A DNA stretch of 64,000 nt from Smittium culicis (Eukaryota > Kickxellomycota > Harpellomycetes > Harpellales > Legeriomycetaceae). Each line of letters begins with the position of its first letter. The stretch's first letter is position 1. The stretch spans positions 1 through 64,000 of the forward strand of contig LSSN01006112.1 in assembly GCA_001970855.1 (NCBI GenBank). Reading direction: 5' to 3'. Positions 12,283-34,103 of the stretch are shown here, piece after piece. A model generated the notes under the pieces. It had not been told where the DNA came from, did not search any database, and saw nothing but the letters and a program-made list of their open reading frames with translations. The translations under genes and the position numbers were made by a program.

Positions 12283-12816
12283 TTATCCTATACCACGAAT
12301 TAAAAAATATATATTAATTATTAATATTAATCCTAAAGTGAAATATATTGTAAAGATATTTTCATATATACTAAGTTTAAAAAGATATTTTTCATGTAAA
12401 TCTAATAACTTAACTAAATATTTATTTGTAAATTTTTTCATTATACCATACTCATAAATCTTACTGTTAATATATAAATAGGATAATGATACCATTAAGA
12501 TACATACACATAAAATATTAGTAATACAAAACATGTCAAAAACATTAGTAGAATAAGTAAAAGGTTCTAACGGGTTATGCATTACTATGTCATAAAATTC
12601 TGAGTAATCCGTAGACGATTTATTTATTATTTCTGGATTTTCAAATACTTTTAATAATTCTTTTTTTTTAATTAGGACCATAGTTGAATCTTCTACATTC
12701 GTTGTTAAATCTACTATATTATTATAAACATTTGCGAATAATGTTCCAGCAGCTATTATAGGAATCCATTTTTCCTTAATTAAAATAACAGTTGTTGTAC
12801 TAAATTTTTTTTTTCA
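12283..12816 (-). CDS. accessory membrane protein, family B C-terminal half (copy at 12.5 kb)
   Basis: I do not recognise this protein. The open frame runs from 12816 with the first ATG at 12681 (132 aa from there). Upstream codons look real (KEKWIPIIAAGTLFANVYNN). The segment VMHNPLEPF precedes two C-terminal hydrophobic helices. The end, KYLFKLSIYENIFTIYFTLG then LILIINIYFLIRGIG, aligns with KYYYHFSVIQNIL...SNIYFKIWGM of the plus-strand frame at 20.6-21.1 kb. The 5' part is shifted at a run of ten A's (minus strand, 12805-12814): upstream in another frame lies NFTFLFPATYNIFSSLSSIN. Further upstream is a copy of the atp6 leader. It may be a decaying gene; it lies about 360 bp past the cox2 stop on the same strand. 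Confidence 0.55.
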
Positions 12817-12879
12817 TTAATTGAACTAAGTGAGCTGAAAATATTGTAAGTAGCAGGAAAAAGAAAAGTAAAATTACTG

Positions 12880-12962
12880 TTTTGTGTCTAATTCATTTTG
12901 AATCATTATTTTTTTATCCTTTTCAGTTTGCTCTACTTAATATCAGGATTATTAATCAATTA
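12880..12962 (-). promoter_or_regulatory. duplicated atp6 leader with start codon
   Basis: On the minus strand this reads TTAATAATCCTGATATTAAG, TAGAGCAAACTGAAAAGG, then ATAAAAAA and ATGATTCAAAATGAATTA. It matches the sequence in front of and including the atp6 start at about 2468-2548. After ATGAAT the next codon is TAG, so the captured start is now out of use or shifted. It sits directly upstream of the family B frame. Confidence 0.8.
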
Positions 12963-13176
12963 TTTATTTAAACCGGGCATAACGTGTTAATTATTACCCT
13001 AGATCGTAGTCCAAATTAACTATTAGGTATGGTGAACTCTATTCTTTTAAACCGATTAGGAATCTTTTATTCTCTGTTTTAGATAGGTCTAGACGCCCCA
13101 TTAGGGGGATCGAGCGGCCCGGGGCGGAGGCTTCCGTCTATCTCAGTTTATTATTTACCTAGTTGAGAAAAGGGAA

Positions 13177-15598
13177 TTAATCTAATTGAGAATTTAACCA
13201 TTCTAAATAATTTTCTATTTTAACAGCTTCTATTACAATAGGCATACCAAAATGGAATACACCACATAATTCAGAACATTGCGAATTTCTCTACGTTTAT
13301 TAAATGTAATCAGATATAAAATATCTGGAGTTAATTTATAAGATTTAAGCATCGAAGATGCGGAAAATTATTAAATTTCCTTCTACTAATTATATAATGC
13401 AAATATATCAAAGATTAATATTTTCTGCCTTTAAATAATTTATTTTACATTTTATTAGTTTAGTAAACTATTGTAAAGATCCCTAAATATAAGTTGCAAA
13501 GCAACGGATATCCGTATATAGAACACTTATATTTTTCTGCACCCTTTCAGGTGGGGGCTGACTATACCTTAAGCAAAAATTAATAATTTTCACCAATCAC
13601 CGTCTAGTCGATGAACTGCAAGCCATTTATAATGGCCCTTGGCTGCGGATTGTCCATTGAAATAATAAATCTTGATTTTACCGTACCACGAGTCATTACC
13701 TGTGCCATAAGTTATGTTACCATACTTACTTGGTTAAGATTCCTTTAGGATGTTCCCGCAATTTGATGATTTATAACCATAGGTTCACTACAGTTTTGGC
13801 CATTGTTCAATTTGACCATAAAAAACTCCTTCTCGCTCCACATACGCGGACACAGCATTTAATCGTCCAGGTAAAGCATCAATTTTAACACCTAAAGAAG
13901 GAACAGCAAAACTATGAATTACATCAGAAGATGTTGAAATAAATCTAATATGAGTATGAATAGGTAAAATAATACGATTATCAACTTCTAATAATCTAAA
14001 TTGACCAGGTATTAAATCTTCAGTAGGTATCATAAAAGAATCAAAAGCTATAGTTTCACCAGTGTTGTCGACGTAATCAGAATATTCATAAGACCAATAC
14101 CATTGGTGCAATAAGGGAGCCACAAAGTCGCTCTCTCATTTATCTCGACTGTACATTAAGCAAAAATAAAAATATTTTCACCCACAAGTGACCCAGTCTG
14201 TTGCAATAAGTAAAAAAAAAATAAATCACTTACTGACAGTCTTGTACTATAAACGGTATTGTAAAATATAGTATTTTAACTGTTTTCACTTGCATCGCCA
14301 AAGGCAAAAGCCTTTAAGAATTCTGTCGAATTCTTAGAAAAATAATACCAAATTATTTCTCACGACTATTATATATATGTGTGTGGGTTGAAAGAACTTT
14401 AATATGATTTTCCTAATTTATATAACATACTAGAATGTATGTAAGGTCCTACTATATTTCTTAAATGATTTATAGATTCTTTTTTTATAAACACGGAGTG
14501 TCGGTTTTTAATACCAGTACTACGTACGGTTGTTTCTAAGTTATACTTGGATTTAATAGTCTCATTTAATAGTTCTACTTCTTTTAATTCAAAACAATTA
14601 GTAGCAATTTTTATTCCATAATTAGCCCAACCACCATTATCCATAATCCACACTGTTAAAGCTAATGGTGTTAAATAATCATAGATATTTAAAGGTATTA
14701 CTTTTTTGCCATTGTTATAAAACATTTTATGTATCCAATTAAAACTTCTAAAAGTAAAGGTATTAAATTCATAACCATAATATATTTTACCTTCCTTACT
14801 TTTAATCGTTCTTGTATATTGTCTAGGTTGAAGATTACTAGTATAACCTCTATTATATAAAAAAGTATATAACCAGAATAAATACTCTTTATGTTTAATA
14901 CTTTGTCTATAATATATTCTTACACCTTCCCCAGATCTTTTATTTCCATAACCATCACCTAATAAAGATCCTATAATAACAGATAATACATCTTCATTAT
15001 GTGGTCCGATCCTTTTGATTGATCTTATATTACTTATGTGATAATGTCTTTGTTGAATAGGGTTGTTATATACAATCGGTTGAATGTAAAAAATATACGG
15101 ATTATATACTAAACATTTATAAAACTTATTTGATTTCATATTATTTTTTTGGCCCCCCCTAAGGCGGGCGCCTTTCATTTTATTTAATATATATAATTTA
15201 AGGCCACCTAAAAAGGCACACGTACTATGTACGTGGGCTAAAAAGAAACCTTGTATTTTAATAGTAATTTGACTATCAATAACAGAATCCATTAAGTATA
15301 ATAATTTAAATGAAGGAAATGCAATAGCAATTAAAATAAAAGCAGGAGAACAAGTCCATAATATTTCAATTAAAGCTCCATGATTAAAATATTTATATGT
15401 TAATTCATTATTTCCGTCTTTAATAAGTATAGATATTAATATCCATCCTACTACTACTAATAATAATGTTTCATAATAATATATTAATCCATGTAATTTA
15501 TCTATACCTGCCATAACTTTTGTAGCACTATCTTGAAATGTTAATTGCCAAGGTTCAGGAGAATCATTTTGAAGAATAAATAAAGAGAATAAATTCAT
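13177..15598 (-). CDS. cox2: cytochrome c oxidase subunit II (3 exons)
   Basis: The Cu-A subunit of complex IV, 249 aa. Exons on the minus strand: 15598-15248, 14108-13815 and 13281-13177. Exon 1 begins [19 protein letters not shown] and carries both membrane helices. Exon 2 starts [12 protein letters not shown], the aromatic Cu-A entry motif. Exon 3 supplies the Cu-A ligands in [19 protein letters not shown]. The start is the ATG at 15598 rather than the in-frame ATG ten codons upstream (MLEYKYLNII). Both splice sites follow T and precede G. The leader upstream of the start is duplicated at 33.70-33.81 kb. Confidence 0.95.
13282..13814 (-). mobile_element. cox2 intron 2, ORF-less group I intron
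   Basis: A 533-nt intron between FYG and QCSELCG. The upstream exon ends GGT and the intron ends in G. No significant reading frame is present. Core-like stretches lie around 13550-13640 (CTGACTATACCTTAAGC, CACCGTCTAGTCGATG). It contains micro-hairpins such as TTGCAAAGCAACGGATATCCG. Confidence 0.75.
14399..15247 (-). CDS. LAGLIDADG homing endonuclease, cox2 intron 1
   Basis: Lies in intron 14109-15247 and is fused in frame to cox2 exon 1 after KIQG. After a variable linker it shows [20 protein letters not shown] (first motif) and [23 protein letters not shown], then a C-terminal [20 protein letters not shown] block. It is a single-domain type 2 LAGLIDADG enzyme closely resembling those of cob i2, cox3 i1 and nad5 i1. 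The second motif reads MDNGG rather than MDDGG, so the usual acidic residue at that position is Asn, which may affect nuclease activity. A GC micro-hairpin (CGCCCGCCTTAGGG, 15159-15172) lies in the linker region. Confidence 0.88.
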   Translation of the reverse strand, partial: FFLAHVHSTCAFLGGLKLYILNKMKGARLRGGQKNNMKSNKFYKCLVYNPYIFYIQPIVYNNPIQQRHYHISNIRSIKRIGPHNEDVLSVIIGSLLGDGYGNKRSGEGVRIYYRQSIKHKEYLFWLYTFLYNRGYTSNLQPRQYTRTIKSKEGKIYYGYEFNTFTFRSFNWIHKMFYNNGKKVIPLNIYDYLTPLALTVWIMDNGGWANYGIKIATNCFELKEVELLNETIKSKYNLETTVRSTGIKNRHSVFIKKESINHLRNIVGPYIHSSMLYKLGKSY

Positions 15599-33645: not shown

Positions 33646-33696
33646 AGCTTTTTTAAAACCTAACTTTTAATCGGTAAATATCCCATTGAATAAAAA

Positions 33697-33808
33697 AAAA
33701 TTCATAATAAATATTTAAATATTTATATTCTAACACTTTTATAAGTATAATTGTAAGTAATCTTTTTTGATCATATTGCTTATTTTATTATGTAAATGGT
33801 AATTTTGT
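33697..33808 (-). promoter_or_regulatory. duplicated cox2 leader with start codon
   Basis: Nearly identical to 15595-15695 in front of cox2, including ATATTCTAACACTTTTATAA and TTTTTTGATCATATTGC. It ends with ATGAAT, the first two cox2 codons, followed by a short new frame that stops after 12 codons. The family A frame then begins in the same register about 25 bp further on. Confidence 0.88.
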
Positions 33809-33942
33809 AACGCAGGTCCCATTAATTCTAATCTTATTACTAATGAAAATAAAGTACCTAATAATCCAGAGAATAAAGCAAATATTAAATATAATGTACC
33901 AATATCTTTTGCATTAGTAGAATACAACCAACGATTTACCAT
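33739..33942 (-). pseudogene. chimeric fragment: cox1 5' end running into the cox2 leader
   Basis: The first 42 codons of cox1 ([15 protein letters not shown] to LELMGP) are repeated exactly, then the frame continues into the duplicated cox2 leader ([14 protein letters not shown]) and stops, for a 67-aa chimera. The duplicated block extends upstream through the cox1 leader to about 34103. It is nonfunctional as Cox1, but the leader may still act. Confidence 0.85.
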
Positions 33943-34103
33943 AAGAGTGTATAACACGCTTATGTAAATTAACCCTTAATATATTATTTCAGTACTATAA
34001 CCTTATGTAAATAAAAATTTTAGTTACATAATTACAATCTCTACCTAAATTTATAATTTGGATGATCTTAAAATTAATCCTAATTAGGATTAATTTAATT
34101 ATA
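33943..34103 (-). promoter_or_regulatory. duplicated cox1 leader
   Basis: Matches 59508-59668 upstream of cox1 with essentially no differences that I can see. Landmarks are ACGCTTATGTAAATTAACCC, AATATATTATTTCAGTACTA and AATCCTAATTAGGATTAATT. The near-identity implies a recent copy or ongoing gene conversion. Confidence 0.9.

Follow-up and report, generated by a model that had tools for sequence, protein, structure and literature searches.

In plant mitochondria, open reading frames (ORFs) associated with cytoplasmic male sterility (CMS) have often been assembled by shuffling endogenous mitochondrial sequence (PMC3473294; comparisons here and below extend to the excerpted text of the papers cited). 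In rice BT-CMS, the partly cox1-derived orf79 is co-transcribed behind atp6, and in radish orf138 is co-transcribed with orfB/atp8 (PMC5138203). Among fungi, the nearest mechanisms are gene-end exchange by mobile ORFs and N-terminal duplications in introns: in Allomyces and Glomus (C-terminal) and in Tremella (N-terminal), an inserted element supplies its host gene with a foreign end and the native end is displaced (PMC3630166, PMC7315562). ORF2 of Glarea lozoyensis is partly cox1-like and has been ascribed to partial gene duplication (PMC3783487). No description of core-gene leaders copied in front of fungal accessory frames was found in the literature searched (titles and abstracts, with few subscription journals covered). 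Such an arrangement is considered here in Smittium culicis. The window, the whole stretch analysed, comprises bases 1-64000 of the 86,658-base contig LSSN01006112.1, within a 56.3-Mb assembly (GCA_001970855.1); the contig ends share 7,195 identical bases, giving a circular mitochondrial DNA (mtDNA) of 79,463 bp. Recombination and orphan frames are ordinary in fungal mtDNA. The unusual side is that nearly all members of three families of accessory frames, F1, F2 and F3, appear from their positions to be attached to core-gene signals, by two routes: behind copied leaders and at core 3′ ends.

The families were defined by comparing 336 frames with one another (E ≤ 10), and comprise eight loci in the circle. 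The family profiles match their own members by construction, and only the relics are independent finds.

24740..25453, minus strand: F1 accessory frame, 237 aa, intact, beginning at a copied cox3 ATG
60456..61133, minus strand: F1 domain joined in frame to the nad4 C-terminus (E 2.4e-43 to F1, 38% identity)
contig 74882-74944, plus strand: F1 relic (start of the frame) immediately behind nad4L and in phase with it (profile scan of the circle, E 0.004)
9698..10225, plus strand: F2 accessory frame, 175 aa, open, 22 nt behind the cob stop
33220..33645, minus strand: F2 accessory frame, 141 aa, behind a cox2 leader copy (E 4e-22 within F2)
44276..44706, minus strand: F2 relic ~40 nt behind the cox1 stop and in the cox1 frame, cut by a dispersed repeat
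12283..12816, minus strand: F3 accessory frame (F3_12), 177 codons stop to stop, 132 aa from its first ATG at 12681
20560..21090, plus strand: F3 accessory frame (F3_20), 120 aa from an ATG at 20728 (E 2.8e-5 to F3_12)

The leader copies were located by self-BLAST and then local alignment, with the A of the donor ATG as +1. There are six, every one on the minus strand, and the original prediction had placed all of them correctly, in position and strand.

25433..25633, minus strand: copy of the cox3 leader and first five codons (donor -178..+21; 95.0% over 201 nt)
12889..12968, minus strand: atp6 leader copy at 12.9 kb (82.2% to 2459-2548)
24498..24629, minus strand: atp6 leader copy at 24.5 kb (80.3% to 2390-2528)
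33689..33806, minus strand: copy of the cox2 leader and start codon (donor -100..+20; 95.9% to 15579-15698)
33799..34101, minus strand: cox1 5′ copy, leader and ~48 codons (donor -159..+145; 98.7% to 59363-59666)
19456..19508, minus strand: worn cox1 leader copy without a start codon (83.9% to 59570-59625; ends at about -54)
30811..31009, minus strand: donor of the cox3 leader
2390..2548, plus strand: donor of the atp6 leaders
15579..15698, minus strand: donor of the cox2 leader
59363..59666, minus strand: donor of the cox1 leader and 5′ exon

Four of the six copies stop at +8 to +21 of the donor ATG and are therefore leaders with hardly any of the gene body, if any; only the cox1 5′ copy (+145) and the worn cox1 copy (~-54) differ. 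The predicted succession at 33.7-34.1 kb of a cox2 leader behind a cox1 5′ duplicate is present: the cox1 copy, with ~289 nt identical to its donor, abuts the cox2 copy at 33.8 kb, and the latter has zero substitutions and one inserted base 5′ of the ATG.

A donor-bias test counted off-site copies at E ≤ 1e-6, with an overlap of at least 30 nt and more than 1 kb distant, with the cox2 end set at 13788. The -100..+20 window had such copies in four of 15 core protein genes (atp6, cox1, cox2, cox3); none was found for the same window of the nad, cob, atp8, atp9 and rps3 leaders. At core 3′ ends (-20..+100 window) just one in 15 had an off-site copy, the nad4-fused F1 paralogue. None of 2000 core-exon interior windows was copied off-site (11 chosen stretches, cox1 being excluded though its first ~48 codons recur at 33.8 kb), and 323 of 2000 random intergenic 120-bp windows had any off-site copy, with no further classification of these. 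A k-mer count over the 15 core leaders gave A-rich words, with no promoter motif standing out.

Placement was scored by counting a frame if its start fell within 150 nt downstream of either a leader copy or the 3′ end of a core gene, and compared with random placement on free sequence in 20000 draws. Seven of the eight family loci were in one or the other context, against a random mean of 0.26 and maximum of 3 (0/20000 draws reached 7). Three lie behind leader copies (F1/cox3, F2/cox2, preceded by the cox1 5′ copy, and F3/atp6), a count reached by leader contexts alone in 2/20000 draws, and four lie no more than 61 nt from a core 3′ end (F1 in nad4, the F1 relic/nad4L, F2/cob and the F2 relic/cox1), which 3′ ends alone reached in 0/20000. 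With F3 left out, the six remaining loci, of F1 and F2, all have one context or the other. The placement control also took the cox2 end as 13788, an error that treated ~0.6 kb as free sequence or as 3′ end; the last cox2 exon is at 13177-13278, and F3_12 lies 361 nt behind the true end, still past the 150-nt cut-off. Seen from the leaders, three of the six copies have a family frame within 150 nt downstream, or three of five sites if the cox1 5′ copy is merged into the cox2 leader.

The original prediction had leaders preceding accessory frames five times; this stands for three of the five sites, and fails for the 24.5-kb atp6 and worn cox1 copies, which have no recognised family frame behind them. 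Self-alignment for frameless leader copies, suggested as a check, gave a divided answer: the three in six with a frame are far above random expectation (matched in 1/20000 draws), yet copies with no recognised frame, including the cox1 5′ copy that adjoins the cox2 leader of F2, are about as common, which goes partly towards refutation. The wider proposition, that the joining of core leaders to predicted membrane frames is non-random, is borne out by hydropathy, random placement and donor bias together. The pattern of core leaders and membrane frames is real, non-random and wider than earlier described.

In F1 at 25.4 kb, the copied cox3 ATG and five cox3 codons run without a break into the rest of the 237-aa frame, as local alignment confirmed for the earlier description; no other leader joint reads whole from its copied ATG. 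The nad4::F1 frame stays open over 724 codons (60456-62630, minus strand). Its nad4 likeness to solved structures stops at residue 504 of the 745-residue stop-to-stop frame, and its single TGA, at residue 631, is away from the junction. The product may be either a fusion protein or one with a tail that gets cleaved. Upstream of nad4 there is a tandem 83-nt duplication (94%), at 62685-62767 and 62771-62853. The F1 relic behind nad4L had a local-alignment score of 80 (54-57 with three shuffled queries), and the best F1 match in one shuffled genome had E 3 (a single shuffle). This relic and the one behind cox1 contain stops.

At the F2 locus at 33.7 kb, the copied cox2 ATG gives 12 codons up to a stop, followed without a change of frame by F2, which has an internal ATG. 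The C-terminal part (33220-33397) matches the cob-side F2 only in another frame (score 62 vs. 38-43 shuffled), and the frame change comes after a run of T. The break is probably a frameshift, which may be either a true one or a homopolymer assembly error. The F2 relic behind cox1 consists of pieces at 44434-44676 (E 1.8e-9, frame comparison) and 44276-44413 (E 4e-6, circle profile scan). Beyond it, the coding sequence for the cox1 C-terminus recurs in diverged form (43729-43941, minus strand; 85% over 43854-43939) with a different tail, possibly the displaced native end. In F3_12, the copied atp6 ATG reaches a stop after two codons and differs in phase from the F3 frame; F3_20 has neither a leader copy nor a core gene end within 150 nt upstream. 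Overall, the frame shares its phase with the core ATG or the core reading frame in five of seven placements (nad4, nad4L, cox1, and the cox3 and cox2 leaders; p=0.045, post hoc), and the cob and atp6-leader placements are out of phase. Of the eight loci, F1 at 25.4 kb, F1 in nad4 and F2 behind cob look whole.

Codon-position differences point to purifying constraint on F1 and F2. The F1 pair differs at 101, 67 and 115 sites of codon positions 1, 2 and 3 (position 2 vs. 3, p=0.00023), the F2 pair at 61, 52 and 80 (p=0.0092). Under simulated neutral substitution, run to half the divergence of each pair, the frame stayed open in 3 (F1), 22 (F2) and 1 (F3) of 2000 runs. The frame copies have amino acid identities of 38% (F1) and 36% (F2), and their leaders nucleotide identities to donors of 95.0% (cox3) and 95.9% (cox2); with leaders so much less diverged, the frames look older than their present leaders. 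Old F1 and F2 frames thus seem to have acquired their core leaders more recently; gene conversion may instead have kept those leaders alike. Hydropathy segments above 1.6 were found in all eight pieces scanned, seven from F1-F3 (the nad4L relic lay outside the scan) and a further frame, F4, described below; these are predicted membrane segments only. The F1 structure predicted from two sequences had a pLDDT of 38.5, too poor a model to interpret.

No clear relative of the families turned up in the collections searched. With F1, F2 and F3 as queries, the whole assembly gave matches only in the mtDNA contig. Six F1-F3 frames had nothing in Pfam at E 0.1 or better except nad4's own domain (DUF6404 at E 0.17 and DUF1673 at E 0.84 fell below the cut-off), and five of them plus F4 had nothing above cut-off in NCBIfam and PHROGs, where the weak matches were F4 to NF033411 (E 0.011) and PRK13711 (E 0.092), the 33.2-kb F2 frame to MamG (E 0.16) and F3_20 to phrog_9457 (E 0.048). 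F1 had a single PDB match, at E 0.69, and F1 and an F2 alignment had no relative in viral_contigs. Likeness to core coding sequence is limited to the first five codons of F1; beyond these, F1-F3 matched solely each other among the 336 frames. A profile comparison of F1 with F2 gave a probability of 0.5%, and they are therefore treated as separate families.

The proposal considered evenly balanced between right and wrong is that F1, F2 and F3 are old mitochondrial membrane-protein families which persist by sitting where core genes are expressed. They would be without recognisable expression signals of their own. Recombination would put them directly behind a core 3′ end, to be expressed by co-transcription or read-through, or by in-frame fusion as in nad4::F1; alternatively, it would put them behind a copied 5′ leader of cox1, cox2, cox3 or atp6, which could supply the donor's transcript start or processing together with leader-dependent translation. 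The relics too sit behind core gene ends, so location seems to be fixed at arrival rather than only by survival. In yeast, activators act on the 5′ untranslated regions (UTRs) of COX1 (Pet309), COX2 (Pet111), COX3 (Pet54/Pet122/Pet494) and ATP6/8 (Atp22), and the four leader donors here are the genes with those 5′-UTR activators (PMC3978653). If the leaders work, the genome would be a natural experiment in leader swapping, with the leaders of four genes, whole or worn, preceding unrelated frames. In that case it would also account for the continued expression of orphan mitochondrial frames, provide a fungal parallel to plant CMS gene wiring, and raise the question of the role of a ~225-residue nad4 tail.

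Several observations weigh against this proposal. The cut-off and the locus list were fixed after the data had been seen. Two leader copies (24.5-kb atp6 and worn cox1) lack a recognised frame. The F2 frame at 33.2 kb is broken despite a near-perfect, presumably recent leader, so leader capture failed to keep it whole. F3 is the least secure of the families: its link is weak (E 2.8e-5 among 336 frames), and a genome search returned the query's own place and not F3_20; the pair differs at 97, 79 and 85 sites, with no codon-position signal (p=0.35); and both frames are open, yet F3_12 has no start in the atp6 phase and F3_20 is in neither context. Measured from its first ATG at 12681, F3_12 lies 208 nt off the leader, beyond the 150-nt rule, which reduces the count to 6/8. 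The yeast activators named above are tabulated without orthologues outside Saccharomycetes (PMC3978653), so the activator step may not carry over.

An unlikely but still substantial alternative is recombination debris, in which repeat-rich mtDNA copies short pieces at random and the association with frames is mostly chance plus selection by the reader. The copied intergenic windows (323/2000) are what it would expect, as are the frequent dispersed repeats, one of which splits the F2 relic, the three of six leader copies with no family frame within 150 nt, and the truncated extra copies of core genes in other fungal mitogenomes (PMC7999263). It does not sit well with random placement, which reaches 3/6 in 1/20000 draws and 7/8 in none, with the four of six copies that stop near the donor ATG, or with codon-position constraint in the F1 and F2 pairs. 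Exchange of gene ends by mobile elements, leader and tail copies being by-products, is improbable. The cox1 C-terminal copy at 43854-43939 beyond the F2 relic does resemble Glomus (PMC3630166), and there are N-terminal duplications in Tremella introns (PMC7315562); but the leader copies are kilobases from their donors and contain untranslated sequence, and neither a displaced cob or nad4 tail (self-BLAST at E ≤ 1e-3, by eye) nor an endonuclease frame adjoining F1-F3, save the core-gene intron frames (frame lists, by eye), was seen. Nor did the profile searches give an endonuclease match, for six F1-F3 frames in Pfam or five in NCBIfam and PHROGs, the relics lying outside these scans.

That chimeric joins made during assembly produced the leader copies is hardly credible. 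The identical ~289 nt of the cox1 copy, abutting a cox2 copy without substitutions upstream of its ATG, would fit such a join, but divergence is 5-20% in the cox3, the worn cox1 and both atp6 copies, and a misjoin therefore cannot yield those four. The original prediction went further, likening the frames to plant CMS loci. In its functional form, by analogy, F1-F3 would be selfish membrane proteins, expressed from captured core signals, which interfere with sex or incompatibility while nuclear suppressors restrain them, and this appears very improbable. The anatomy is like that of some CMS loci: core 5′ sequence is joined to a membrane frame, or a novel ORF is set with a core gene, as orf79 is behind rice atp6 (PMC5138203). 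The identity with CMS loci was not supported: the frames are not assemblies of core coding sequence and are more diverged than their leaders, and four further members lie behind 3′ ends. F1 and F2 show purifying constraint at deep divergence, unlike young CMS chimeras. It is likewise doubtful, and improbable as a whole, that the membrane families spread by riding core genes, both through leaders copied from cytochrome oxidase and ATP synthase genes and by fusing in frame to core proteins, while acting in a CMS-like nuclear-mitochondrial conflict.

The circle encodes nad1-6, nad4L, cob, cox1-3, atp6, atp8, atp9, rps3, both rRNAs and tRNAs; protein names were read off translations, nad4 and nad2 also by PDB match, and rRNAs were identified with Rfam. 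TGA occurs inside nad1, nad5 and cox2 exons and was taken as Trp. Frames of at least 140 codons stop to stop in gaps between genes number seven (with the cox2 end again set at 13788), six of them family frames and one, at 5517-6059, overlapping repeats; 13 of 200 shuffled sets had any such frame. Downstream of the atp6 copy at 24.5 kb is a frame of 56 codons (24311-24481, minus strand), with no F1-F4 match among the matches listed by profile scan and local alignment. By the same methods, no F1-F3 frame was recognised among the listed matches behind the worn 19.45-kb cox1 copy. A stretch at 19.3 kb considered as a worn F3 N-terminus was supported by neither. F4 has no relative within this genome. 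Two cox1 intron frames (50560-51225 and 53169-53806, LAGLIDADG type by eye) are 77% identical over 674 nt, evidently an intron-ORF duplication inside one gene. No DNA or RNA polymerase frame was noticed by eye in the frame lists as a sign of an integrated plasmid; no polymerase profile search was made. A chitin synthase N-terminal domain (PF08407), a fungal domain, is present elsewhere in the assembly.

18237-18482, minus strand: F4, a frame of 82 codons lying between atp9 and the worn cox1 leader and encoding a hydrophobic, Gly-rich segment
1785-1864, 23718-23820, 27918-28000, 32323-32443, 43954-44002 and contig 73739-73831: dispersed repeat set
1846-1915, 5661-5779, 44448-44504 and contig 69008-69064: second dispersed repeat set, splitting the F2 relic at 44.4 kb

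Among fungal systems, ORF2 of Glarea lozoyensis is a hypothetical frame that likewise holds a piece of a core gene, but there it is 132 aa of cox1 coding sequence, and here it is leaders with few or no codons from several donors (PMC3783487). The mobile-ORF hybrids of Glomus and Allomyces share the frame behind a core gene and a duplicated gene end, which here was seen at cox1 and not at cob or nad4; theirs are endonucleases with C-terminal coding ends, in contrast to the leaders and membrane frames of S. culicis (PMC3630166). In Tremella fuciformis introns a 5′ coding part of a core gene is also duplicated, but within introns of the same gene, whereas here the copies are off-site, include untranslated leader and precede unrelated frames (PMC7315562). 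Partial core copies near hypothetical proteins occur as truncated copies in Mycosphaerellaceae (PMC7999263) and in the Shiraia-like HSP1-HSP2-atp6_2 segment (PMC11881002), though the excerpted accounts do not describe a joint of leader to frame. The fused C-terminal extensions of cob and nad6 in Phlebia radiata are in-frame extensions of core genes comparable to nad4::F1; they are called putative non-translated, and the excerpted text mentions no free-standing frame homologous to them (PMC4019555).

With plant CMS the likeness appears to be one of architecture only. Two CMS traits are present: a mitochondrial frame joined to core sequence (the cox3 leader and five codons on F1, with three leader joints in all), and a membrane segment in the product, as predicted by hydropathy. 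A third is absent, the coding sequence of F1-F3 not having been shuffled from endogenous mitochondrial pieces. Given the arrangement of orf79 and orf138, the wiring here resembles that of CMS loci: a novel frame is placed with core-gene expression signals, in one locus with an in-frame core 5′ end (PMC5138203). Unlike the plant ORFs, those of S. culicis form repeated, constrained families, mostly on untranslated leaders or at 3′ ends (PMC5138203).

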